From positions 1 to 32,380 of the IMG/VR virus record IMGVR_UViG_3300022927_000070: a DNA stretch of 32,380 bases; one strand, 5' to 3'. The translations under genes were made by a program, and so were the position numbers. The notes below the pieces were generated by a model that ran no database searches, was not told where the DNA came from, and was given only the letters and a program-made list of their open reading frames with translations. This DNA comes from a virus. Below, piece by piece: positions 428-29,783 of the stretch. Positions within the stretch are counted from its first letter, which is position 1; every line of letters begins with the position of its first letter.

Positions 428-3400
428 TGGCACTCAATTCAGGCTTTGCAAATTTAGATCCAGTTTCCGATACTTTTAGTGATTGGCTGAATAAAACAAA
501 TGAGATGATAACTCTCATGCGAGAGGATGTCATCACTGCGAATACAGCGGGTGCTGAAACATCTGGTGATGCTATTCTTGTCGGAAGTTTTTACGCAAAT
601 AACTTAATCGCTCACGACTCACTGAGAGGCGGTGACTATGCCGCATCGGATACTCTTTACATTTCATCAAATGTACACGTACAAAACACTGCGCTTGATA
701 CTATTATTTGGAAAGATTTTGAAGTAAATGGTAATTCACACTTCGGTGCTACTGCTAACGGCTCACATACTGTTCAAATTACTGGTGATTTTCTAGTATC
801 ACTCGATGCTACATTCCAAAATGATATGTACATCGATGGCACTTCAGCGAATGCTGTACAGTGGCTATCTGCTACAGATGAAATGAATTTCAATGACAAT
901 GTAGAATTAACATTCGGCACTGACAGCGATCTAGTGATTAGACATAATGGCACTGACAGTGAAATCGCAGACAACGGTACAGGCAATCTTTACATTCGAG
1001 CAACGAATCTTACGCTGTCTGCGAATGATGGCTCACGATATATCGTAGGTAACGATGGAACTTCAGTAGAAATCTTCTCGCCTGCCGCGAATACATTGGA
1101 AGTCACAATCACCGATGTAGGCATGAAAGTTGAGAACGAAGCGAATACAAATACATTGACCGTTCGCTCTACGTCTAGATTGCAAGGTAACATCGGCATC
1201 GAAGGCTCAACAAATGCCAACACTGTTACATGGGACAAGACTACTAACACTCTGAATTTTGATGATAATAACTTCGCAACATTTGGCACGAGTGGTGATC
1301 TTTCAATTTATCACAACGGTACCAACTCACTGATTGAAAATAATACAGGTGAGATGATTGTTCAGGCTGATAATTTCACACTTAGAGGTGATACAGCACT
1401 TGAAACAATGATGGACGCTGATTTAAATGGCGCTGTTAGACTATTCTATGATGCAAGCGTACATACTACTGCAAAACTTGTTACTCAAGAAGGTGGTATT
1501 ATCGTTACTGGTAATACAGTTGCGGATGGTTTCGTAGCAGGAGACAATGAGAAAGTACAACTCGGTGATGCACAAGATTTGGAAATGTATCATGACGGTA
1601 CAAACTCGCGCATTGATAGTAAAACTGGTGCCATCGTAATTAAAAATACTGAGGCTGATAATGATATTATTCTATCAGCCGATGACAGCACAGGAACTGG
1701 TCAAACAGATTACTTTAGAGCAGACGGTTCAACAGGTGATGCTATATTGTATCACTACGGCTCTCAAAAACTTGCTACTAAATCTATCGGTGTCGAAATC
1801 GAAGGCGAAGCAAACACTGATACACTCAGAGTTCAATCTACTTCAGACTTCGAAGGCAATATTAATATTCAAGGTTCAACAAGTGCTGATACTGTCACAT
1901 GGACAAAATCAACTAACACAATGAACTTTGATAGTAATAACTTCGCAACATTCGGTACTGGTGGCGAACTATCTGTTTTCCATGATGGAACTAATTCTTA
2001 TATCAGAAACACAACTGGTGAATTAATTGCACAAGGTAATGGAATTACTCTGCGAAGTCACACTGGAACAGAAAGCTACTTGACTGCTGACGTAAATGGC
2101 GCAGTCAGTCTTTTCTATGATGCAAGCGTACATACTACTGCAAAACTTGTTACTCAAGCGGGCGGTGTTACTGTCACAGGTAATGTCGTAGCAGATGGAT
2201 TTGTTGCTGGCGATGGAGAGAAAGTTCAACTGGGCAACGCTCAAGACTTAGAAATCTTCCATGAAGCAACAGGCAATTCAATCATTCAAGAGAATGGCGC
2301 AGGCAGCCTCGTATTAAAAGCAAATAATACTATTATTCAAAGCACTGCTGGCGAGAACTACTTCCAGGGTGTCGCAGATGGCGCCGCAACAGTATACTAT
2401 AATGGTAATGCCAAACTTGATACCAAATCAGATGGTGTTGATGTAACAGGACTCACAACGACAGACACACTTGAAGTTCAAGGCGATGCAACGTTTGATG
2501 GAACTTCTACTGATGTTTTGCAATGGGTATCTGCAAGCGATACTCTGAACTTCGATGATTCTGTTAAAGCTACGTTTGGTACTGATGGTGATATGAAAGT
2601 ATATCACACTGGTACTACAGGTATTATTGATTCGCTGAACACAGATATTATATCGAATACCTCACTTGATGTCAAGACTAATGCGTTAATTATTGAGTCT
2701 GCAACAGGCGAAAACTATATTACTGCGACTGTTAACGGTCAAGTTGATCTTTACTTCGACAATAATGTTAAACTCGAAACTAAAACTGGTGGCATTCAAG
2801 TCACTGGTAACGTAGTCGCTGACGGTTTTGTTGCGGGAGACGGCGAGAAAGTTCAGCTAGGCGCATCACAAGACTTACAAATCTTCCACGAGGCGACTGG
2901 TAACTCTATCATTCAAGAGACAGGCTCAGGTAGTCTTGTACTCAAAGCAAATAACTCAATCATTCAAAGCACATCTGGACAGAATTACTTCCAAGGTGTT
3001 GCAGGTGGTGCCGCTACACTTTATCACGCTGGTAGTGCGAAGATTGATACAACCAATGGCGGTGTTGAAGTTACTGGCGATGCAAATACGACTACTCTAC
3101 ATGTACAAAGCACAGCATCATTTGATGCAGATGTGAACTTTGATGGCACTACTGTCGATGCAGTTACATGGAGTGCATCTGCGAATACTTGGACATACGG
3201 TGATAATGTAACTGTATTCTTTGGTCCATCTGACTTCTCTATTGCGCATGATGCTACTGATACGAACCTGATAAACAGAACTGGCGATCTTTATATTCAA
3301 CAAAGTGCTGACGATAAAGACGTTATCATTCAAAGCGATGACGGTGCTGGTGGTGTAACTGAATATATCCGCGCTGATGGTTCTATATCTGGAACGATTC

Positions 3401-4785
3401 TTTACTCTGCTGGAACAAATAGACTACAAACAACGAATACGGGTGTAACAGTCACTGGTGTTGCAATAGCAGACGGCTTGACAATGGGCACAAACGAAGT
3501 CATTCGACTCGGCTCTAACAATGTCACTGGCGATCTGCAAATATATCACAATGGTGTTGATACTGGTTATTTGATGAATCAAACTGGCAATCTCGATATT
3601 AGAACTGCCAGTGGGTTTGATATCAGATCATCGACCACACCTGCGACTTACTACATGCGTGGTCAACAGTCAGGTGATATTAAGATTTATCACCCAGCAA
3701 CAAATTCTTATAAGTTTCAAACAACAACTAGTGGCATAAAAGTAATTGGCAATGTTGAAGCTGATGGCCTTATCATGGGCGATGGCGAAAGTGTTAGACT
3801 TGGTAATGACACAGACTTGACGATTCAACACAGCGGCACAAACGGTATTATTGAAAACAATACTGGCACACTGTATATTCAATCTAATACGATCACTCTT
3901 CGAAGCGATCAAGGAACACCTGAGCCTTTCATCACTGCTGTTGTTGACGGTGGAGTCACATTATATTATAATAATGGTGTTGCACTTACAACAAGAAGCG
4001 GCGGCACAGATATTGCAGGCGAAGCAAATACTGGAACACTGCTTGTCAATGGCATCTCTAATACTGCTGGCATAGCATATTTCCAAAGCTCTGTTCAACC
4101 AACTACTACAGGAAATGATTTAGGCACAAGTTCTCTTCGATGGGATGCTTTCTTGACGAACGTTGATGCTGATGGTTATATTCAGCCTACGTCAAACACA
4201 CAAAATCTTGGTCAAACAAATGCTAGATGGCAACTCTTTGCAAATACTATTAGCGCAACTGGAGCTATAGATGTAGATGGCAGTGCAACACTAGGAAGCC
4301 TGATAGTAGAAGGCACATCATTGTTTAGTGATACCATGACAGTGAATGCTGACGCAACATGTACAGCGAACGTAACAACTGAGAACTTGCAAGTCAATGG
4401 TACAGCAAACTTAAACATTCTACAGATTGTTGACCTTCACGCTAATAACTTTGCGATTGTCGGTGGTGATGGCGAGATTACACTTTCATCTAGTGCAACT
4501 GATGTTGTGATTGATACTGTACCTGCAAGTGAAAGTAGAGGCTTCAAGTACTTCATTGAAGGTAGAAATACAAACACCGACAGTTGCTATGTTGTCGAAA
4601 TTTCTGTAGCGCACAATGGAACAGATGTATTCTTCACACGATACGGTGAAGTTGCAAATAACTTTGATGCAGTTTGGAATGTCGGAATAAACGGTGCAAA
4701 TGTCGAGTTGATGGTAACATGCTCAGGCGCGGCACCAGCAACAAATGTTCACTCATTCAATATCGTTAAGTACCAAACTAGGTAG
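427..4785 (+). CDS. Giant repeat-rich virion protein, probable tail fibre/adhesin (1452 aa)
   Basis: This is a very long protein rich in Thr, Asn, Gly and Asp with almost no Cys. About ten divergent copies of a unit built on FGT-x-x-DL-x-I-x-H-x-GT-x-S-x-I-x-N-x-TG-x-L can be read between roughly residues 155 and 1160. They alternate with linkers of the type TGNVVADGFVAGDGEKVQLG. The repeats look like short beta-hairpin modules, as in trimeric beta-structured phage fibres. The last 110 residues or so (from about 1340) are not repetitive and could form a terminal beta-sandwich. The start codon overlaps the stop of the coiled-coil gene at 427; an AGG lies 8-11 bases upstream. Similar repeat proteins are common in marine T4-like phages, usually annotated only as structural or fibre proteins. 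Receptor binding is inferred, not shown. Confidence 0.8.
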   Translation: MALNSGFANLDPVSDTFSDWLNKTNEMITLMREDVITANTAGAETSGDAILVGSFYANNLIAHDSLRGGDYAASDTLYISSNVHVQNTALDTIIWKDFEVNGNSHFGATANGSHTVQITGDFLVSLDATFQNDMYIDGTSANAVQWLSATDEMNFNDNVELTFGTDSDLVIRHNGTDSEIADNGTGNLYIRATNLTLSANDGSRYIVGNDGTSVEIFSPAANTLEVTITDVGMKVENEANTNTLTVRSTSRLQGNIGIEGSTNANTVTWDKTTNTLNFDDNNFATFGTSGDLSIYHNGTNSLIENNTGEMIVQADNFTLRGDTALETMMDADLNGAVRLFYDASVHTTAKLVTQEGGIIVTGNTVADGFVAGDNEKVQLGDAQDLEMYHDGTNSRIDSKTGAIVIKNTEADNDIILSADDSTGTGQTDYFRADGSTGDAILYHYGSQKLATKSIGVEIEGEANTDTLRVQSTSDFEGNINIQGSTSADTVTWTKSTNTMNFDSNNFATFGTGGELSVFHDGTNSYIRNTTGELIAQGNGITLRSHTGTESYLTADVNGAVSLFYDASVHTTAKLVTQAGGVTVTGNVVADGFVAGDGEKVQLGNAQDLEIFHEATGNSIIQENGAGSLVLKANNTIIQSTAGENYFQGVADGAATVYYNGNAKLDTKSDGVDVTGLTTTDTLEVQGDATFDGTSTDVLQWVSASDTLNFDDSVKATFGTDGDMKVYHTGTTGIIDSLNTDIISNTSLDVKTNALIIESATGENYITATVNGQVDLYFDNNVKLETKTGGIQVTGNVVADGFVAGDGEKVQLGASQDLQIFHEATGNSIIQETGSGSLVLKANNSIIQSTSGQNYFQGVAGGAATLYHAGSAKIDTTNGGVEVTGDANTTTLHVQSTASFDADVNFDGTTVDAVTWSASANTWTYGDNVTVFFGPSDFSIAHDATDTNLINRTGDLYIQQSADDKDVIIQSDDGAGGVTEYIRADGSISGTILYSAGTNRLQTTNTGVTVTGVAIADGLTMGTNEVIRLGSNNVTGDLQIYHNGVDTGYLMNQTGNLDIRTASGFDIRSSTTPATYYMRGQQSGDIKIYHPATNSYKFQTTTSGIKVIGNVEADGLIMGDGESVRLGNDTDLTIQHSGTNGIIENNTGTLYIQSNTITLRSDQGTPEPFITAVVDGGVTLYYNNGVALTTRSGGTDIAGEANTGTLLVNGISNTAGIAYFQSSVQPTTTGNDLGTSSLRWDAFLTNVDADGYIQPTSNTQNLGQTNARWQLFANTISATGAIDVDGSATLGSLIVEGTSLFSDTMTVNADATCTANVTTENLQVNGTANLNILQIVDLHANNFAIVGGDGEITLSSSATDVVIDTVPASESRGFKYFIEGRNTNTDSCYVVEISVAHNGTDVFFTRYGEVANNFDAVWNVGINGANVELMVTCSGAAPATNVHSFNIVKYQTR
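1444..1489 (+). repeat. 46-bp exact direct repeat, copy 1 (copy 2 at 2113-2158)
   Basis: A 46-base stretch encoding FYDASVHTTAKLVTQ occurs identically at 1444-1489 and 2113-2158, inside the 1452-aa fibre-like gene. The flanking repeat units are related but diverged. An exact copy therefore points to recent duplication or gene conversion between units. Confidence 0.85.
2113..2158 (+). repeat. 46-bp exact direct repeat, copy 2 (copy 1 at 1444-1489)
   Basis: This is the second identical copy of the 46-base repeat, 669 bp (223 codons) downstream of the first and in the same reading frame. Recombination between the copies would delete or add whole modules without a frameshift. Confidence 0.85.
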
Positions 4786-4786
4786 A

Positions 4787-4794
4787 TATAAATA
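4787..4794 (+). promoter_or_regulatory. TATAAATA late-promoter-like octamer overlapping a start codon
   Basis: A perfect match to the T4 late promoter -10 octamer occupies the 8-bp gap before the ATG at 4794, and its last A is the A of that ATG. T4 late transcripts begin a few bases downstream of the octamer. A transcript from here would lack this ATG, so the site could serve only downstream genes or be a chance match. Confidence 0.35.
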
Positions 4795-5120
4795 TGGCAA
4801 CGAAAGCAAACTTAGTTATTGATCAAGGAACTGATTTTTCAACATCGATCACTTTGACCGATGATGATGGTGACGCAATTGATATATCTGGTTACACAGG
4901 CGCTGGTCAAATTAGAAAATATTATACATCTACGACAGCAATTAATTTCACAGTAACCACGAATGCTTCTGGTGTTGTAACATTGTCATTAAGTTCGAAC
5001 ACAACGAATGGAATCGAACATGGTCGTTATGTATATGATGTTGAATTAACAGATGGTAGTGGCTTAGTTTCTAGAATTATGGAAGGATTAGTCACAGTTA
5101 CTCCAGGAGTTACACGATAA
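4794..5120 (+). CDS. Small beta-sandwich virion protein (108 aa)
   Basis: The protein starts with MATKANLVIDQGTDFSTSITLTDDDG and continues with alternating polar and hydrophobic strands ending in a motif like YVYDVELTDGSG and RIMEGLVTVTPGVTR. This layout is typical of a family of small phage proteins of about 100-120 residues. They resemble the N-terminal Ig-like domain of baseplate upper proteins (BppU-N-like) and often occur just before fibre genes. There is no signal peptide or catalytic motif. It begins 9 bp after the stop of the 1452-aa protein and its TAA shares one base with the next ATG at 5120. It probably serves as a small adaptor or decorating piece in the tail or fibre complex. 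The fold is inferred from the strand pattern only. Confidence 0.65.
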   Translation: MATKANLVIDQGTDFSTSITLTDDDGDAIDISGYTGAGQIRKYYTSTTAINFTVTTNASGVVTLSLSSNTTNGIEHGRYVYDVELTDGSGLVSRIMEGLVTVTPGVTR

Positions 5121-5353
5121 TGTCACTAACAAATTACACAGTAAAATTAAATCAAAATGCTGGTAGACTCTCGACAAGAGCGCCTGTTACTCTCAGAAAT
5201 GAGAAAGTGACAGGAGGCGCATCTATTAGTAGGTTGTCTGATTTGACTGATGTGGCCGAAGTATTAAAAACAGATGGCTCATCTCTCGTATATGATTCAG
5301 ACAACGGTCGTTATGAAATTAAGGCGCAAAATTTAGATGGTGGATCTTTCTAA
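5120..5353 (+). CDS. Small virion protein with terminal DGGSF motif (77 aa)
   Basis: The start overlaps the stop of the previous gene (TAATG), and an AGGAG lies at 5105-5109. The N-terminal half is basic and Asn-rich. The second half carries a pattern frequent in phage fibre proteins, SRLSDLTDV followed by LKTDGSSLVYDSDNGRYE, and ends in LDGGSF. The fibre encoded at 5403-7058 ends in the closely similar LDGGTF. The shared C-terminal tag suggests a common contact surface or a similar trimer cap. No enzymatic motif is visible. The likely role is a minor structural or fibre-attachment component; the exact function is unknown. Confidence 0.6.
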   Translation: MSLTNYTVKLNQNAGRLSTRAPVTLRNEKVTGGASISRLSDLTDVAEVLKTDGSSLVYDSDNGRYEIKAQNLDGGSF

Positions 5354-5356
5354 ATT

Positions 5357-5364
5357 TATAAATA
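5357..5364 (+). promoter_or_regulatory. Late promoter TATAAATA
   Basis: A perfect T4-type late promoter octamer lies in the 49-bp gap between the stop at 5353 and the ATG at 5403. Initiation a few bases downstream would leave a leader of about 30 nt containing the GGAG ribosome site at 5389-5392. In T4-like phages these sites are read by host RNA polymerase with the phage sigma gp55 and the sliding clamp. Confidence 0.75.
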
Positions 5365-5402
5365 ACAATATAATAAAAAATTCATAACGGAGCAATTCAA
5401 AC

Positions 5403-7058
5403 ATGGCAAACTTAATGCAAATCAAACGGTCGAGTAATACTGCGGTACCAGCAAGTCTGTCTGATGGCGAATTAGCGTTTTCAGGAAATGGTGACGTACT
5501 CTTTATTGGTAATTTCGGCAGTGTAACTGCTGTTGGTGGCGCACGTACTCCTGGCACTCTAACCGCGAATCAGGCTATTGTTGTAGATAGCAATTCAAAA
5601 ATTAATAACATTATCGCGACTGATATCACGCTCGAAGAGCAATTGACGGCGAACGGCGCAACTGGTTCTGCTGGTCAAGTTCTTTATTCTGGCGGTGCTG
5701 CCGCTAACGCATATTGGGGCGATTCAGTCGCTGGTTCTCTTGCGGGACTTGAAGACACTGATACGACTGGCGCTGCCGCTGGCGATTTCTTGTACTTCAA
5801 TGGTAGTAACTGGGTAGATGCCGATCTTACAGATGGTAACGGTCTTTCAAAGACAGCCGTTTCAACTGCTGGATCAGAATCAATCACTCTGGATGTTACT
5901 GCTGGCAATGGTGTCACTTCAAATTCTACTGGCGTTCACGTAGAAGTTTCTGGTGATTCTTCGCTTGTTGCAAACTCTTCTGGTTTGTTCATCGATGATA
6001 GCACACTGTCAATCACTGCATCACAGATTTCTGATGACATTGCACTTGGTACTGACACTTCAGGTAACTATGTAACGTCTGTATCTGCTGGCAACGGCTT
6101 GACTGGTACTGGTCTGACTGCAACAGAAGGCGGTACTCCTAGTCTGTCTGTACTAGCGGCTAACAACACAATAGCAGTCGGTGCTGGTGGTATTGCAGTT
6201 AACGAAAGTAATCTTTCGATCACTGCTTCTCAGATTTCTGATGACATCGCACTTGGTACGGATACTTCAGGTGATTATGTTGAAGCATTGTCTCCTGGCA
6301 ATGGTATTTCAGTTGTAAATAATACAGGTGAAGGCGCTACTCCTGGTGTAAGTGTTAATGCTCAAGACGGTCTTGTTGCAAACTCTTCTGGCTTGTTCGC
6401 TGAAATCACACTTGGCACACACACTGATAGCAACTATGTTGCAAGCATCACTGGTACTGCAAACGAAGTTGAAGTTGATGTATCAACGGGTGCAGTTACA
6501 ATCGGTCTGCCTAATGATGTAACAATCGGTCAGAACTTGACAGTTTCTGGTAACCTCGTAGTTTCTGGTACTACCACTACAGTTAACTCAACAACGTTAA
6601 CAGTTGACGATCCACTGATCAAACTGGCAGACGGCAATGACACGACTGACGCGGTTGACATCGGCTTCTATGGATTGTATGATAGTAGTGGTTCACAAGA
6701 CCTTTACGCTGGTTTCTTCAGAGATTCTTCTGATGGCAAGTTCAGAATGTTCAGAGACTTGCAATCACAGCCTACAACTACAGTTAACACTGGTGGTACA
6801 GGCTATGCAGTTGCGACTCTTGTTGCTCACCTCGAAGATGACAGTGTAAGCATTACAGGTGGTTCGATCACAGGCATCACTGATCTTGCAGTAGCAGATG
6901 GTGGTACTGGCGCAAGCTCTTTCACTGACAACGGCGTCATCTACGGTAACGGTGCATCTGCACTTAGCGTAACAGCCCAAGGCGCTGAAGGTCACGTACT
7001 TCAAGCAGACGCTTCTGGTGTACCCACTTTCGGCTCACTTGATGGTGGAACGTTCTAA
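5403..7058 (+). CDS. Tail fibre-like protein with QIKR N-terminal module (551 aa)
   Basis: The N-terminus (MANLMQIKRSSN, then LSDGELAFSGNGDVLFIGN) matches the short module found at the start of many phage tail fibres and in the N-terminal region of major-tropism-determinant-type proteins; it is thought to dock the fibre on the tail. The body (about 60-540) is Gly/Ser/Thr/Asn-rich, with repeated phrases such as LTASQISDDIALGTDTSG, written here as SITASQISDDIALGTDTSG, and NGLTATEGG. This is typical of a trimeric beta-structured shaft. The C-terminus ends in LDGGTF. The start has GGAG ten bases upstream and a late promoter in the gap. A related docking module begins the collagen-like fibre at 9400. 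Receptor specificity is not predictable from sequence. Confidence 0.8.
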   Translation: MANLMQIKRSSNTAVPASLSDGELAFSGNGDVLFIGNFGSVTAVGGARTPGTLTANQAIVVDSNSKINNIIATDITLEEQLTANGATGSAGQVLYSGGAAANAYWGDSVAGSLAGLEDTDTTGAAAGDFLYFNGSNWVDADLTDGNGLSKTAVSTAGSESITLDVTAGNGVTSNSTGVHVEVSGDSSLVANSSGLFIDDSTLSITASQISDDIALGTDTSGNYVTSVSAGNGLTGTGLTATEGGTPSLSVLAANNTIAVGAGGIAVNESNLSITASQISDDIALGTDTSGDYVEALSPGNGISVVNNTGEGATPGVSVNAQDGLVANSSGLFAEITLGTHTDSNYVASITGTANEVEVDVSTGAVTIGLPNDVTIGQNLTVSGNLVVSGTTTTVNSTTLTVDDPLIKLADGNDTTDAVDIGFYGLYDSSGSQDLYAGFFRDSSDGKFRMFRDLQSQPTTTVNTGGTGYAVATLVAHLEDDSVSITGGSITGITDLAVADGGTGASSFTDNGVIYGNGASALSVTAQGAEGHVLQADASGVPTFGSLDGGTF

Positions 7059-9399: not shown

Positions 9400-13044
<3,645 letters not shown>

Positions 13045-19413: not shown

Positions 19414-22083
<2,670 letters not shown>

Positions 22084-22112: not shown

Positions 22113-25100
22113 ATGGCATTACCTACTTCAGGAAATCCAATATCACTCTCTGATATTAATATCGAGATTGGTACTTCAGCCACTGCCGAGATCAGTCTTG
22201 GTAGAAGTTACGTTCGTGCGCTTGCAGGAATACCTAGTGGTCCTATCAGTCTTTCTAACATGCACGGCAAGAGAAGAGATACTACCGTTATTACTTCTTA
22301 TTCAACTAATATTGACACAACAACTACGTTTCAAACTGGATCGGTATTTGAAACAACAACTGCATTTATAACTTCGTTCAACACGCAAACGACCACTGTA
22401 TTCTTAACTTCGTTTGACACTACTATTGTAACAGCATTTAATACGGCGTTCAACACATTAACTTCTTTTGTTACTGCCTTCAATACAACAACGGTATTTG
22501 ATACTAATTTCCAAGAAAACACAAACTTCACTCAAAGTACATCAAGAAGTACTGTCTATCAATCAAATACGAATACTGTATTCAACACTAATAGACAAAC
22601 ACAAACAACATATATTTCTTCGACTAGCAGAAATACTACAGTTGTCGGTGTGGGTGAGACAACGATTCTTACAACTTATCTTGCAGACACAAGTACTGTG
22701 TTCAATACAAGCAAAGCAACACAGACAACAAAAACAAAATCTACTAATAGAACAACAGTATTTGATATAATTGCTGATACTACAATTGTAACATCATTTA
22801 ATACTCTCACTTCTAGAGGAACATCAAGAGACACTGCCACAAGCAGAACAACAACTTTTGATACTCTCACTTCTAGAGGTACATCAAGAGACACTGCCAC
22901 AAGTAAAACAACCACGTTTGATACTTTGACGTCCAGAACAACCACATTTAATACGTCAACTGCCTTTAATACCTCATTCAATACTCTGACTTCTAGAGGT
23001 ACATCAAGAGACACTGCCACAAGTAAAACAACCACGTTTGATACGTTAACGTCCAGAACAACCACGTTTAATACGTTGACTACGTTTGTGACATCGTTCA
23101 ATACTTTAACGAGTAAGAATACTACTAAATCGACTGATACAAGCAGGACAACCACGTTTAATACTCAGACGACAACAACATTCAATACGTCAAAGCTGAC
23201 TAATTATAATACGACTAAAGATACAGCAACGTCTAGAACGACCACGTTTAATACGTTGACTACGTTTAATACTACGTACCTAACTGCGAAGTCGCGTGAA
23301 ACAGGAACAAGCAAACAGACAAATACGTCAACTACATTTAGTGAGATTACGAGTAGAAATACAACATATCAAACAAGTACTACTTTTGTAACTGTATATC
23401 AGGTATCCACTACTTACATAACCAATTTTCAAGCGAACACCTCCCGATCAACTAGTAAAAATACGACTGAATCTAGATCAACGTTGACTTCATATCAGTC
23501 TACAAGACAAACGCTTAAAAATACGAGCAGACAGACTGCTACTCAAACGACCTATATCACGAATTTTCAAGCGAACACTAGTAAACAGACATTGAAGGCC
23601 GCGAATACAACTAGAGCTACTTCGAGATCAACAACGAAGCAAACGAATGTAGGCGCACAGAAAGATACCAACTACAATACTTCTAGAAATACATTGACTA
23701 CTTACAATACAATAATTGGACTTAAAAACACATTTAGGCAAACAAGTAAAAATACATCGACTACTTTCGTGACAACCAAGCAAACTTTCTACGACTATGG
23801 ACAAATTGATACCACTTACGTAACACAGTATCAAACGGTGTTTGAAACACAGAAACAGGTTAGTACTACGTTCCTGACCGCAAAATCGCAGAATACAGTT
23901 AAAAGTACGCAGACATCAACAGTTTTTCAAACACAGAAAAACACTCTTGTGCCTGTGTCAAAAAATACTACAACTACTTACAACACTGCAACAACCTTTA
24001 ACACTACCTTCTTGACTGCTAAGTCGAGAAATACAAGTAAGCAGACAAACTATAGTAAAAACACAAGTAAGCAAACCGACGAAACAATAACCACAACATT
24101 CTCGGATCTTACTACTATCTTAACATTGACGTTAACATCGTACAATACTACTACTTCTTTTCAGGCAAATACAACTAAGAGTACTAATAAAGATACGGCA
24201 ACGTCTAGAACGACCACGTTTAATACAGTGACTACGTTCGCAACACAATATAATACTACGTTTAATACGAGCAAACAAACCGATACGGCAACGTCTAGAT
24301 CAACTGCATTTCAAACAACAACTACGTTTGTGACATCGTTCAATACTTTGACAAGTAAGAACACTACCAAAAATACGGCAACGTCTAGATCAACTGCATT
24401 TAATACTCAAACGTCAAAAACAACTACGTTCAATACAACGACTGCGTATACCACGACATTCGCCACGTTAACTTCTAGAGGAACATCAAGAGACACAGCA
24501 ACTTCTAGATCAACTGCATTCAATACACAGACGTCCAAAACGACCACGTTTAATACAACGACTGCATTTAATACTGCATTTAATACGCAGACGTCCAAAA
24601 CAACCACATTTAATACGTCAACTGCCTTTAATACCTCGTTTAATACGCTGACATCCAGAAATACAACATTCCAAGAGCAAACGGTTGTTACAACAAGCAC
24701 GGTATTTAATACGTCATATCTAGCAGATACAACTACTACGTTCAACACAAATAAAACTACTCAGACAACAAAGTCTAATAACACTACGTTCCAAGAAAAT
24801 ACAAATGTCACGAATTTGACTGTTTTTAATACTGCATTTTTTGTTGCAACAAATACAATTTACAACACGACTAATCCGACACAGACAACAGTATCTAGAA
24901 CTACAACCTTTAATACTGTGTTTCAAACGTTTGCACAAACAATCATGACAACCTCTAAAGATACACTTACGTCCAGAGGCACATCAAGAAATACACTTAC
25001 GTCCAGAGGCACATCAAGAAATACAGCATTCTTAACATCAAGAAATACTGCTATTACAAATGATACGCTGACTTCTAGAGGAACAAGTAGAGCCACCGAA

Positions 25101-25211
25101 ACAGTAACTGGTGTCGATACTTCTAGAATTACAAACACTATCTTTGATACCGTGATAGACACTGATAAGCAACAGACATATAATACTACAACTAATGAAT
25201 GGGAGCTTTGA
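22113..25211 (+). CDS. Thr/Ser/Asn-rich decapeptide-repeat fibre protein (1032 aa)
   Basis: Residues 1-50 are a known phage fibre N-terminal module (LPTSGNPISLSDINIEIG; ISLGRSYVRALAG; GPISLSNMHGKR), which argues for attachment to the virion. From about residue 57 to 1015 the sequence is almost only Thr, Ser, Asn, Asp, Gln, Lys, Arg and Phe/Tyr, with Thr near 40% in the densest parts by eye. The basic unit is ten residues, FNTLTSRTTT-like. Aromatic or basic residues fall at positions 1 and 7, Asn/Asp at 2, and Thr at 3, 5 and 9; longer variants insert extra 6- or 4-residue steps. Pro, Trp and Cys are essentially absent until the final NEWEL. The pattern predicts a repetitive beta fibre. The many Thr/Ser could accept glycans from the neighbouring glycosyltransferases (inference). 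Function unknown. Confidence 0.8.
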   Translation: MALPTSGNPISLSDINIEIGTSATAEISLGRSYVRALAGIPSGPISLSNMHGKRRDTTVITSYSTNIDTTTTFQTGSVFETTTAFITSFNTQTTTVFLTSFDTTIVTAFNTAFNTLTSFVTAFNTTTVFDTNFQENTNFTQSTSRSTVYQSNTNTVFNTNRQTQTTYISSTSRNTTVVGVGETTILTTYLADTSTVFNTSKATQTTKTKSTNRTTVFDIIADTTIVTSFNTLTSRGTSRDTATSRTTTFDTLTSRGTSRDTATSKTTTFDTLTSRTTTFNTSTAFNTSFNTLTSRGTSRDTATSKTTTFDTLTSRTTTFNTLTTFVTSFNTLTSKNTTKSTDTSRTTTFNTQTTTTFNTSKLTNYNTTKDTATSRTTTFNTLTTFNTTYLTAKSRETGTSKQTNTSTTFSEITSRNTTYQTSTTFVTVYQVSTTYITNFQANTSRSTSKNTTESRSTLTSYQSTRQTLKNTSRQTATQTTYITNFQANTSKQTLKAANTTRATSRSTTKQTNVGAQKDTNYNTSRNTLTTYNTIIGLKNTFRQTSKNTSTTFVTTKQTFYDYGQIDTTYVTQYQTVFETQKQVSTTFLTAKSQNTVKSTQTSTVFQTQKNTLVPVSKNTTTTYNTATTFNTTFLTAKSRNTSKQTNYSKNTSKQTDETITTTFSDLTTILTLTLTSYNTTTSFQANTTKSTNKDTATSRTTTFNTVTTFATQYNTTFNTSKQTDTATSRSTAFQTTTTFVTSFNTLTSKNTTKNTATSRSTAFNTQTSKTTTFNTTTAYTTTFATLTSRGTSRDTATSRSTAFNTQTSKTTTFNTTTAFNTAFNTQTSKTTTFNTSTAFNTSFNTLTSRNTTFQEQTVVTTSTVFNTSYLADTTTTFNTNKTTQTTKSNNTTFQENTNVTNLTVFNTAFFVATNTIYNTTNPTQTTVSRTTTFNTVFQTFAQTIMTTSKDTLTSRGTSRNTLTSRGTSRNTAFLTSRNTAITNDTLTSRGTSRATETVTGVDTSRITNTIFDTVIDTDKQQTYNTTTNEWEL
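22281..25190 (+). repeat. 30-bp-unit minisatellite encoding a 10-residue Thr-rich repeat
   Basis: Repeats step by 30 bp, with 12- and 18-bp variants. 24961-24990 and 24991-25020 are a perfect 30-bp tandem pair. 22869-22924 and 22989-23044 are a 56-bp exact match exactly 120 bp (four units) apart. The palindrome TCTAGA recurs a dozen or more times because Ser-Arg is often written TCT AGA. Confidence 0.85.
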
Positions 25212-26400: not shown

Positions 26401-27133
26401 TATTCTAATATTCAATTATGGAGATGGCTTGGTTGACATGACCGTGTCTTCAATTAAAAAAAATATGCCAGACTGGAACTATCATGTTATCAATGTTATT
26501 GCGAAAAACAAAACACTATTCTATGCTTTCAATTATTCTAAAAAAATAAAAAAGCCTGTTCTTGCTGTATCTGAAGGAATTGTCTTAAATATAAAATCTG
26601 ATGACATTCCCGTCGAGATAGAAAAATATCCAATGGTAGTGAGCAGAGAAGCAGTTTTTTCTAAGAATAACAGATATCATTCTGACTATGAACAGATAGA
26701 TTATGACATAGCGGGTAGAATTGATCTATCATTATTCATTATTAATTACAAAAAGTTTGATTTTTATCCCACTAAAAACAAAGGTGTTCTTTCTAAAATC
26801 ACGTTAGGATATATGCCTAGAAAAATGAACTTCACAACAGATATACTATTCACTACAACAATGAATCCTTATAATTGTTTGAAGTATGGTATAGATAGCA
26901 AAGATGCATCCGTGGTGAATTACGTCAGACTATTGTATAAAAAAGAACTCAAACTGAATGAGTTACTTGCTTACGATTTCGATTTGCTTAGACCTTATGT
27001 TCAGAATATAAGCAATAACAATCTAAGGTCTAACTTAATAAGACACATTCAAAGAACTCGAAAAAATTCTATTCATAAATTGAGAAGCAGAATGCAACAA
27101 GTTGAGCCACCTAGATTCTCTAATTTCTGGTAA
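26393..27133 (+). CDS. Uncharacterised protein with weak GT-A-like start (246 aa)
   Basis: The N-terminus (MIDILIFNYGDGLVDMTVSSIKKNMPDWNYHVINVI) resembles the first strand and helix of GT2/GT-A transferases, in which a strand is followed by a helix carrying 'S-I-x-x-x-x-P' and another strand. However, no clear DxD metal-binding motif follows; the equivalent place reads VLAVSEGIVLN. The C-terminal 60 residues are strongly basic and helical (LIRHIQRTRKNSIHKLRSR), suggesting nucleic acid or partner binding. It overlaps the upstream gene by 8 bp, and its 3' end overlaps the oppositely oriented glycosyltransferase gene by 14 bp. It could be a degenerate or unusual glycosyltransferase, or something unrelated. 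Function left open. Confidence 0.45.
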   Translation: MIDILIFNYGDGLVDMTVSSIKKNMPDWNYHVINVIAKNKTLFYAFNYSKKIKKPVLAVSEGIVLNIKSDDIPVEIEKYPMVVSREAVFSKNNRYHSDYEQIDYDIAGRIDLSLFIINYKKFDFYPTKNKGVLSKITLGYMPRKMNFTTDILFTTTMNPYNCLKYGIDSKDASVVNYVRLLYKKELKLNELLAYDFDLLRPYVQNISNNNLRSNLIRHIQRTRKNSIHKLRSRMQQVEPPRFSNFW

Positions 27134-29783
27134 CCTCATACACTGACGTTCCTTTGTGGCCACAGATTATAGTAGTATCACAGTGTAGTTTGTGGCCTTT
27201 TTCTCTCGCCTTTTTACAGAAGTCCATATCTTCACTGAATGTATCAGCATGATTCAATGCGCTGTGATATACAAAGTAAGGATAGCCCACGCTCAGAAAT
27301 ACTTCTCTCTTAACTAAAACACAACCAAAACCACTGCCGCCTATTTCAATCAGTGACTTATCTGGAATATTTTCAATTGGTATGTTTTTCTGACTGAGAT
27401 CATATACTTCCAATGTCTGTGTCGGTAGTCTCTGTCGATAAATGCCAGAGACATAATCGACATCATGTGCCAGCATTTTCTTCAGCGTATCTGTTTCAAA
27501 AATAATATCGCTGTCTACCGAGAAAAGATAATCATAGCCATTCACTACCCAGTGTGCAATTAGATTACGAACTTGATCGATGTTGTATCCATAGAAGAAT
27601 TGAAACTCAGTCTCGTATCCTTCTGGCACCTCAAGATCATAGATAGATTTCATTGTTTCTGGTTCAATATACTTTGCTGTCGGTATAGCAATCAAAATCT
27701 TCTTCATAGTCTTTTCACTTTTTTTTAAAATAAAGTTAGCAGTATCAGTCTGCTGATCGCCATTCACCTTATAATCGTTAATAGGATTAGTATCATTATA
27801 CATGTACACAATATCTGACACGCAAACAATCTTATCTGGATCAGCCTGCTCTATTATGTTGTAGAATGTCGCAACGTCTCCACCTGCACGATACCACTCG
27901 CCGTATGCGTCTTTAAACAGTGATTCATCTAAGTTTAATGCAAGACGACCAACAAACGTTCTCAGATGAGGATAGGGAAAGTTCCAGTTAAACTTGTGAT
28001 CACGATATGATTTATTTGCTTTTACTTCTGGTGGATAAGGCTGTGCAATCAGAGGTATATTATCAACGAGTGACCAACAACTTCCATAAGTATATTCAGC
28101 GCCTTCATGATACATATTATTATACATATTGAAGATGTTTGGATTATTGACTAGCCAATCATCGCCATCCAGAATCATTACAATATCATCCGAATAACAT
28201 CTAGATTTGATCGTTGAAATTTGATTACAGACTGCTCCCATATTTTGATCACGAGTAATGACCTCAAAAATTCTGCGAATGTCATCTCTTTCTTCACCGT
28301 TTTCGAGTCCAGTTTCAGCGATTGTATTTTCAATCACCTCGGCAGTTCGATCAGTTGATGCATCATTAATAATAATCATTCGATAATTGTCATAATCTTG
28401 TGCGGCAACAGAACGAATACATTTGTCAATATAGTTCTCTGCGTTATACACTGTCGTGATGATTACAATTGACTTTTCTGTTTGCTTTCTTACTGATGAT
28501 TCTTCGTAGTTATGGTATCTACGACCGAATACTTTATGCACTCGATTATTAATATCTGTTACTCGATGATATTCTTCGATCGGTAAGAACTCGCCTAATA
28601 GTTTGTAGAAATGCTGTTTCCATTGCAGTGCCACAGTATCCCATGTGCAAATATCTTTAACTTGATTACACGCATACATTTTTTGTTGATGGAGATAAGG
28701 TGTATTATATGCTTTGATTACCGCGTCTGCAAAGATTCGACACTGCTCATCTTCATTCAGCCACGGCAGTGACCAGTTCTTCTCTACAGGATATGGTATC
28801 TTATAACAAGCAAGATCAATTGCAGTCTCTTCGAGAGCGCCGAACTTACATGTAATCAGTGGTGTATTATACGCAAGCGACTCAAGCGTGGAGATGCCAA
28901 ACGTCTCTGGAAACGCAGATGGATATATCATGAAGGATGATTCTGCTAATATGTCTGCAATTTCTTTCTGAGAAATAATACCAGTGAACTCGATATCATT
29001 GAAAGCATGAGTAGGATCATCAACCATCTCACGCCATCTCAATTCTTGCTCATCTGGTCCATGCGATGTTCGAAAGCGATAATAACCACCGATGACTTTC
29101 AAACGAGCGTCTGGTAATTTTTCTTTCACGAGAGGCCATACTTTCTCTACGAGAGGAATCATACCCTTTGTAACTGAAGCATTATATACAAAAAGATTTG
29201 GATCTTTCTTTGACACATCTACGAAGTCGTGATACAATTGGATACCATTGCGCGTCTGAAATACATGTCGTTTCAGTATCTCATAGTTTCTACGTTTACC
29301 GTGATCACAGTTCGTTACATATGATGTGTGCCAATCAGACAGCGTGAATATCTCATGAATTCTTCCTTGCAACACGAAGTCTTCAATAAGATCATCACCA
29401 TCGCAGAATGTATCATGCATCCAAAGTACTCTGTGCCTAGATGCTAACGCGACTCTCTCAAGGTTTGGCAGTTCACTTGACCATTTAAATCTTTCTTTGA
29501 TTTCATTCGGCGCAAAAGATACTACTGATCTGGATGCTATAAATACATCGAAGCGTTTATAATTCTCAATGTTTGAAAGAGGCTCATATTTTACATTATC
29601 ATAAATACCTGGCGAAGCATCGTCACTTGTACAGTCATTGAACACATATGTGTCAAATCCGAGTTTTGACAACTCTCTAGACATAAGAATGACGGCAGAC
29701 TCAGAACCACCGAGACCGCGTTTTGTAAGTGTTGAGCCGTCATAACAGAGACCAAGGGTATCTACGATAGCAACTGTAAGCAT
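27120..29783 (-). CDS. Three-domain glycosyltransferase (GT4 + GT2 + GT-A-like), 887 aa
   Basis: Residues 1-400 or so form a GT-B/GT4 enzyme: GGSESAVILM near the start, VYNASVTKGMIPLVEKVW, then the signature SFMIYPSAFPETFGISTLES with its two Glu around residues 291 and 299. Residues about 435-640 form a GT2 domain: SIVIITTVYNAENYIDKCIRS, IINDASTDRT and the metal-binding DGDD near 538. From M693 (MKKILIAIPTAKYIEPE) a third GT-A-like domain runs to the end, with VDSDIIF near 754, GSGFGCVLVKREVF and SEDMDFCKKAREKGH near 853. Single-domain versions of each are common; the triple fusion is unusual. It is the only minus-strand gene here, with GAGG five bases before its ATG. Targets could be virion fibres, the host surface or phage DNA. 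I favour fibres because of the neighbours. Confidence 0.9.
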   Translation of the reverse strand: MLTVAIVDTLGLCYDGSTLTKRGLGGSESAVILMSRELSKLGFDTYVFNDCTSDDASPGIYDNVKYEPLSNIENYKRFDVFIASRSVVSFAPNEIKERFKWSSELPNLERVALASRHRVLWMHDTFCDGDDLIEDFVLQGRIHEIFTLSDWHTSYVTNCDHGKRRNYEILKRHVFQTRNGIQLYHDFVDVSKKDPNLFVYNASVTKGMIPLVEKVWPLVKEKLPDARLKVIGGYYRFRTSHGPDEQELRWREMVDDPTHAFNDIEFTGIISQKEIADILAESSFMIYPSAFPETFGISTLESLAYNTPLITCKFGALEETAIDLACYKIPYPVEKNWSLPWLNEDEQCRIFADAVIKAYNTPYLHQQKMYACNQVKDICTWDTVALQWKQHFYKLLGEFLPIEEYHRVTDINNRVHKVFGRRYHNYEESSVRKQTEKSIVIITTVYNAENYIDKCIRSVAAQDYDNYRMIIINDASTDRTAEVIENTIAETGLENGEERDDIRRIFEVITRDQNMGAVCNQISTIKSRCYSDDIVMILDGDDWLVNNPNIFNMYNNMYHEGAEYTYGSCWSLVDNIPLIAQPYPPEVKANKSYRDHKFNWNFPYPHLRTFVGRLALNLDESLFKDAYGEWYRAGGDVATFYNIIEQADPDKIVCVSDIVYMYNDTNPINDYKVNGDQQTDTANFILKKSEKTMKKILIAIPTAKYIEPETMKSIYDLEVPEGYETEFQFFYGYNIDQVRNLIAHWVVNGYDYLFSVDSDIIFETDTLKKMLAHDVDYVSGIYRQRLPTQTLEVYDLSQKNIPIENIPDKSLIEIGGSGFGCVLVKREVFLSVGYPYFVYHSALNHADTFSEDMDFCKKAREKGHKLHCDTTIICGHKGTSVYEVTRN

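Follow-up and report, generated by a model that had tools for sequence, protein, structure and literature searches.

The gene at positions 22113-25211 of the window (the whole stretch of viral DNA that was analysed, 32,380 nucleotides) encodes a 1032-aa protein that probably forms, at a rough probability of 0.78, an antiparallel beta hairpin of almost 1000 residues with mutually complementary arms, serving as a tail-fibre shaft. In the proposed arrangement, the chain would exit an N-terminal anchor domain, extend as arm 1, turn near residue 539 and return as arm 2, which would bring the C-terminus next to the anchor. The contacts on one face would be Thr to Thr, interrupted at intervals of 4 or 6 residues by F/Y against R/K, for a total of about 66 cation-pi rungs. 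The uneven intervals between rungs, together with the direction of each rung (F-R or R-F), would act as an address that fixes a single register, and two-residue indels paired on both arms would change the length with the register kept. With 437-483 residues per arm, the shaft would be long and thin with a small tip, reaching about 150-165 nm at 0.34 nm per residue. Sequence statistics establish the parity, the complementarity, its register and centre, and the persistence of the pattern in relatives; the beta conformation, the pairing within one chain, the dimensions, the oligomeric state and the fibre role are inferred from them and from the gene neighbourhood. It is fairly probable that the protein represents a class of viral proteins in which strands recognise each other by a two-letter code resembling base pairing, aromatic residues being set against basic ones along stretches that range from hundreds of residues to more than 1600, either inside a single chain or across chains of neighbouring genes. 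Such a class would be a natural sequence-addressed protein duplex for fibres of variable length. The literature on Thr-rich phage repeats, long hairpins, cation-pi zippers and peptide motifs yielded no description of it. Proteins are not known to show, at such a scale, long-range complementarity between residues that is legible by eye like an RNA stem. If structure agrees, the code would explain how a fibre is lengthened or shortened by two-residue steps without loss of register and by what means separate chains recognise their partners, and it could serve as a simple code in the design of protein duplexes. It would also mean that low-complexity Thr-rich phage proteins, which are masked by BLAST filters and fall outside family libraries, can be highly ordered.

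The open reading frame begins with an ATG and, as described in the first-pass annotation, contains a Thr-rich array. The following features were assigned:

22113..22280, + strand, N-terminal anchor-like domain (residues 1-56, MALPTSGNPISLSDIN...GIPSGPISLSNMHGK), based on tblastn relatives
22329..23639, + strand, predicted hairpin arm 1 (residues 73-509), based on the ungapped register i+j=1078
23640..23816, + strand, tip region between the arms (residues 510-568)
23712..23729, + strand, turn-like loop IIGLKN (residues 534-539), with the mirror centre at 539.0
23817..25127, + strand, predicted hairpin arm 2 (residues 569-1005), on the same basis as arm 1
25128..25211, + strand, C-terminal end (residues 1006-1032 plus stop), ending in YNTTTNEWEL, from the sequence

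A tblastn search recovered relatives of the anchor domain (about 56 aa) from 34 phage records, including those of Vibrio, Erwinia and Pelagibacter phages, and quite different, unrelated domains follow it in the Vibrio, Pelagibacter, Erwinia and other phage proteins. Profile and sequence searches with the 1032-aa protein gave no match in Pfam, PHROGs, NCBIfam or PDB chains. Its sole close relative is an identical copy on a second contig, and covariation was therefore tested in the other arrays only. The C-terminal end (residues 1006-1032) is expected to be placed next to the anchor at the fibre base; a Trp-containing cap such as YWDGSxW ends several relatives with other anchors, a likeness judged by eye. 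Within the tip region, residues 517-531 and 546-560 give a sub-hairpin centred at 538.5 (score 7.4, weak alone) and may pair with a register offset of one.

The core of the protein (residues 59-1032) contains 35.7% Thr and no Cys. Pro had also been reported as absent, but it occurs twice in the array, at residues 614 and 922. The tenfold autocorrelation expected from the first reading is present, with z=13.5 at lag 10 for F, Y, R and K taken together (FYRK). Successive FYRK residues are spaced by 4 (82 times) or 6 (59 times), and in this protein the two spacings alternate more often than chance predicts, with 89 adjacent 4/6 gap pairs vs 54 expected (z=6.6). Gap sizes in the array are mixed (4/6/8/10/12), and higher-order repeats are found at lag 40. 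A two-residue parity is stronger than the tenfold order: nearly all even lags of the autocorrelation are positive or close to zero and nearly all odd lags are negative. Counted from a large residue in 14 distinct arrays, the even offsets carry Thr in 74-92% of cases and the odd offsets in only 19-37%, and the common gaps are 6, 4, 8 and 10. Strict 6+4 order is strong in the 1032-aa protein only, the values in four relatives being z = 3.6, 2.4, 2.1 and 2.0. The Thr-rich 6+4 rhythm that had been noted is thus real, but the decapeptide is not the fundamental unit. As read from the sequence, the basic unit is x-Thr, a dipeptide whose Thr gives way to F, Y, R or K at every second or third occurrence. 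This parity is what an extended beta strand would give, and in such a chain it would put Thr on a single face.

The mirror correlation of large residues peaks at residue 539.0 with z=12.8 (block shuffles at most 7.0), and this centre coincides with the turn-like IIGLKN. In the register i+j=1078, arm 1 (residues 73-509) and arm 2 (residues 569-1005) align without gaps at a local score of 107.6, compared with at most 15 in shuffles. The large-large pairs in this register are aromatic-basic in 66 of 68 cases, with one aromatic-aromatic and one basic-basic pair (Fisher p=6e-17 on the aromatic/basic identities). Counted from the basic side, 66 of the 76 R/K residues in the arms face F/Y, and about 10 of the 76 have no aromatic partner. 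Shuffling of the aromatic and basic labels on fixed positions lowered the net score to at most 26 vs 65 observed, which indicates that positions and identities both matter. The first-pass annotation had treated aromatic and basic residues as one interchangeable class; the two classes are instead complementary between the protein halves, and lumping F, Y, R and K together hid the pairing rule. The mirror signal was not detected in the collagen-like fibres and other proteins of the window, and 204 non-array ORFs scored as a control reached 15.0 at best (median 7). The scoring scheme was devised after the pattern had been seen in the 1032-aa protein and in a family of small arrays (family A), and was then applied unchanged to new arrays. 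In pooled arrays, aromatics that lack a basic counterpart tend to lie across from L, I, V or T, and N is often opposite S on the other face.

The antiparallel sense of this signal bears on the earlier analogy with ice-binding proteins and on the rival reading of the array as a beta-solenoid with Thr ladders and about ten residues per coil. The Thr-rich composition, the TxT runs and the tenfold autocorrelation agree with such a fold, but the complementarity is antiparallel about one centre and the best parallel register of the 1032-aa protein scores 25 vs 65, which is not the signal of a parallel stack of fixed coil length. Tenfold order is not general, gaps are mixed, and the commonest indel between relatives is two residues, which a coil of fixed length should not tolerate. 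The solenoid form is accordingly very improbable, whereas both the strict two-residue parity and the tail-fibre neighbourhood are in keeping with the wider suggestion of a fibre-like beta fold bearing rows of Thr. Parallel pairing was rejected, antiparallel pairing being far stronger in the 1032-aa protein and in two-gene relatives. The repeat of about 15 residues of the adenovirus-type triple beta-spiral was not found (lag 15 z of -4.1 for identity and -5.7 for FYRK).

Related arrays differ from one another in ways that preserve the mirror register. In a comparison of L012 with L031 (62% identity), both residues of five rungs have switched class (e.g., RF to FR), and the register is kept at 75% of paired positions; in 1000 trials with the arm-2 indels placed at random, it was kept at a mean of 12% (sd 10%, maximum 56%). 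Indels are even-sized in 24 of 24, 24 of 25 and 17 of 17 cases in three homologous pairs, the first two of which share a protein, and only 8 of 12 gaps are even between L010 and L005/L016. Thr codons are under purifying selection: between L010 and L016 they show 176 synonymous differences and 37 that are not. As an alternative, the array could be a linker that is disordered, rich in Thr and possibly glycosylated; its parity would then arise from DNA repeat expansion in multiples of six bases. The low complexity, the higher-order repeats at lag 40 and the nearby gene for an 887-aa glycosyltransferase are compatible with it. Slippage, however, does not yield aromatic-basic complementarity, whether within a single gene from one half to the other or across a pair of genes, and Thr itself is kept while its codons vary synonymously. 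No DNA inverted repeat accounting for the mirror was found, and inverted repeats were rejected as the source of the symmetry. A disordered linker thus has hardly any probability. N-glycosylation through the sequon-like FNTT/FNTS was also rejected, as the neighbouring transferase is a GT1+GT2 fusion and not of the HMW1C type.

Viral contigs were scanned with a DNA pattern, which gave 29 stretches, nearly all of the same grammar; a second DNA pattern, run later, gave new arrays that also abide by the rule. The bacterial genomes scanned with the DNA pattern contained two chance matches, neither of them in arrays. Antiparallel complementarity was found in dozens of related viral arrays, and the tip-centred register rule was also found in DLP6, L010, L012, L017, L026, L031, L085 and family A. 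Aromatic-basic and like-like rungs number 37 vs 2 in DLP6, 91 vs 3 in L012 and 124 vs 2 in L017. Seven one-gene arrays, including the 1032-aa protein, have 500 aromatic-basic, 10 aromatic-aromatic and 2 basic-basic rungs. The largest arms, of 1665 residues, belong to L144 (226 aromatic-basic rungs, 0 like-like), and L104 has 90 aromatic-basic and 0 like-like rungs. The L144 array is encoded on the - strand by a single ORF of 3395 aa that is open at the contig end; it would exceed 500 nm if extended. The mirror centre lies within an inserted non-array domain in L012, L017, L026 and L031. Behind its main hairpin with a Gly-rich tip domain, L026 has a second, shorter complementary hairpin at residues 1305-1526 (score 15.6, marginal), and it is possibly a branched fibre.

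Family A comprises 18 distinct proteins of 230-322 aa that have a different anchor and a non-array element in mid-protein (TADENTQG, GGKSGG and others); the family profile gave no PDB match. The arms on either side of this element are nearly equal in length (e.g., 78/77, 100/99, 110/109 and 115/117), ranging from 71 to 117 residues in the 14 members with the middle located, which suggests a chain going out and back. Anchors differ among the arrays (the small anchor domain, a baseplate wedge domain in L010 and DLP6, and others), and the same array behind different anchors is expected of a modular shaft. The protein AMQ65900.1 of Stenotrophomonas phage DLP6, annotated as a baseplate wedge subunit and located at the gp7 position, carries the same array with the tip-centred mirror code joined to a baseplate wedge domain, whereas the 1032-aa protein has the small anchor. 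Homologous gp7-position baseplate wedge proteins are encoded by L052 (5995-9861), L053 (5995-8298) and L054 (5983-7569). The array is present in the wedge protein of DLP6 and absent from those of Caulobacter phage Cr30 and Rhizobium phage RHph_I1_18, and in proteins at this position it appears to be an optional extension. DLP6 is the only cultured phage found with the array. Searches of phage records with the arrays by tblastn gave almost no matches, probably because BLAST masks such low-complexity sequence.

Several arrays without an anchor domain (L009, L029, L006 and L014) show no strong self-complementarity, and neither do the fragments of L030. If the code reflects strand pairing, these arrays should have a partner strand in another ORF, and a complementary antiparallel strand is indeed encoded next to the array in all five records. 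The partner scores are 128, 153, 78, 181 and 114 (shuffles at most 16), and the rungs summed over the five records are 379 aromatic-basic, 2 aromatic-aromatic and 0 basic-basic. Clear two-gene cases number four of the five records, of which L093 and L094 are closely related to each other; the fifth is L095. The second array ORF at the L029 locus scores 94 antiparallel vs 13 parallel. In L092, A188-664 pairs with B19-495, like a hairpin cut at the tip. L135 contains two array genes (+ 857 and + 4795) with a cross-complementary score of 216 and self scores of 73 and 71. L095 has an array with an anchor like that of the window, spread over two overlapping ORFs (1325-3869 and 3808-6691) and split at the tip domain; it may be one gene with a frameshift, an assembly error or a split gene.

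The two-gene relatives indicate pairing of separate polypeptides, and the complementarity of the 1032-aa protein could likewise operate between chains, in antiparallel copies (i vs 1078-i) or in neighbouring chains of a trimer. Intramolecular and intermolecular antiparallel pairing would leave the same statistics in the sequence, and the needles of T4 gp37 are trimers of out-and-back chains (PMC6957217). However, the strands of two-gene relatives with full coordinates are laid out as a hairpin cut at the tip, and one-gene forms have a tip domain at the mirror centre, which an antiparallel dimer of 300 nm would put in mid-fibre. Pairing between chains is therefore unlikely, though it deserves some weight, and the hairpin within one chain is preferred; a trimeric fibre or a trimer of hairpins is possible. 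Two AlphaFold2 predictions were too poor to use, one made from an 18-sequence alignment of a 310-aa relative (mean pLDDT 37, strands) and the other from residues 437-641 alone (pLDDT 53, helix).

The nearest known arrangement is the T4 gp37 needle (residues about 882-1009), in which the chain runs out to the tip and back to the collar and the tip binds the receptor (PMC6957217). By its sequence, with a single mirror register centred on a loop, the 1032-aa protein is predicted to share the out-and-back antiparallel arms with the tip at the end, and it may work like the gp37 needle. The needle arms are about 50-60 residues long, in contrast to 437-1665 here, and the needle is Gly/Ser-rich, with HxH motifs in its sequence and iron sites held by His, whereas the 1032-aa array contains no His. 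The gp37 sequence has no aromatic-basic mirror code (score 5.4), and the 1032-aa protein was consequently kept apart from the gp37 needles.

Aromatic and Arg side chains of neighbouring strands stack alternately in thrombospondin type 1 repeats and in the WSXWS motif, where the ladders consist of a few Trp/Arg layers in one small domain, with Cys. The predicted stacking in the Thr arrays is similar, but it uses F/Y and R/K in tens to hundreds of rungs between two strands without Cys; the 1032-aa protein contains a single Trp (residue 1030), no Cys and no Trp-Arg(-Cys) layers. Triple-stranded beta-helix shafts, of which T4 gp5 is among the examples of phage spikes and fibres in PMC4576200, are long thin beta shafts of phage adhesion machinery, as is proposed for the array. 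They are built from three chains around a common axis, an arrangement in which mirror complementarity is not expected.

The gene neighbourhood and the modularity of the array point to a fibre role and host contact. Two collagen-like fibre proteins of 1214 and 889 aa are encoded upstream of the 1032-aa gene (9400-13044 and 19414-22083 of the window), the second with a C-terminal S74 chaperone domain, and genes for the neck and the tail-sheath stabiliser lie downstream. The host recognition cluster of pelagi- and cyanomyophages lies between VrlC and the neck genes (PMC7029224), and the gene layout of the window matches it. In HTVC008M, the same anchor domain is found a few genes upstream of the neck genes. 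The array is most likely a long thin shaft in the tail-fibre gene cluster of a T4-like virus of the cyanophage/pelagiphage type. The 887-aa glycosyltransferase, a fusion of GT1- and GT2-type domains, is encoded inside this fibre cluster at 27120-29783 on the - strand.
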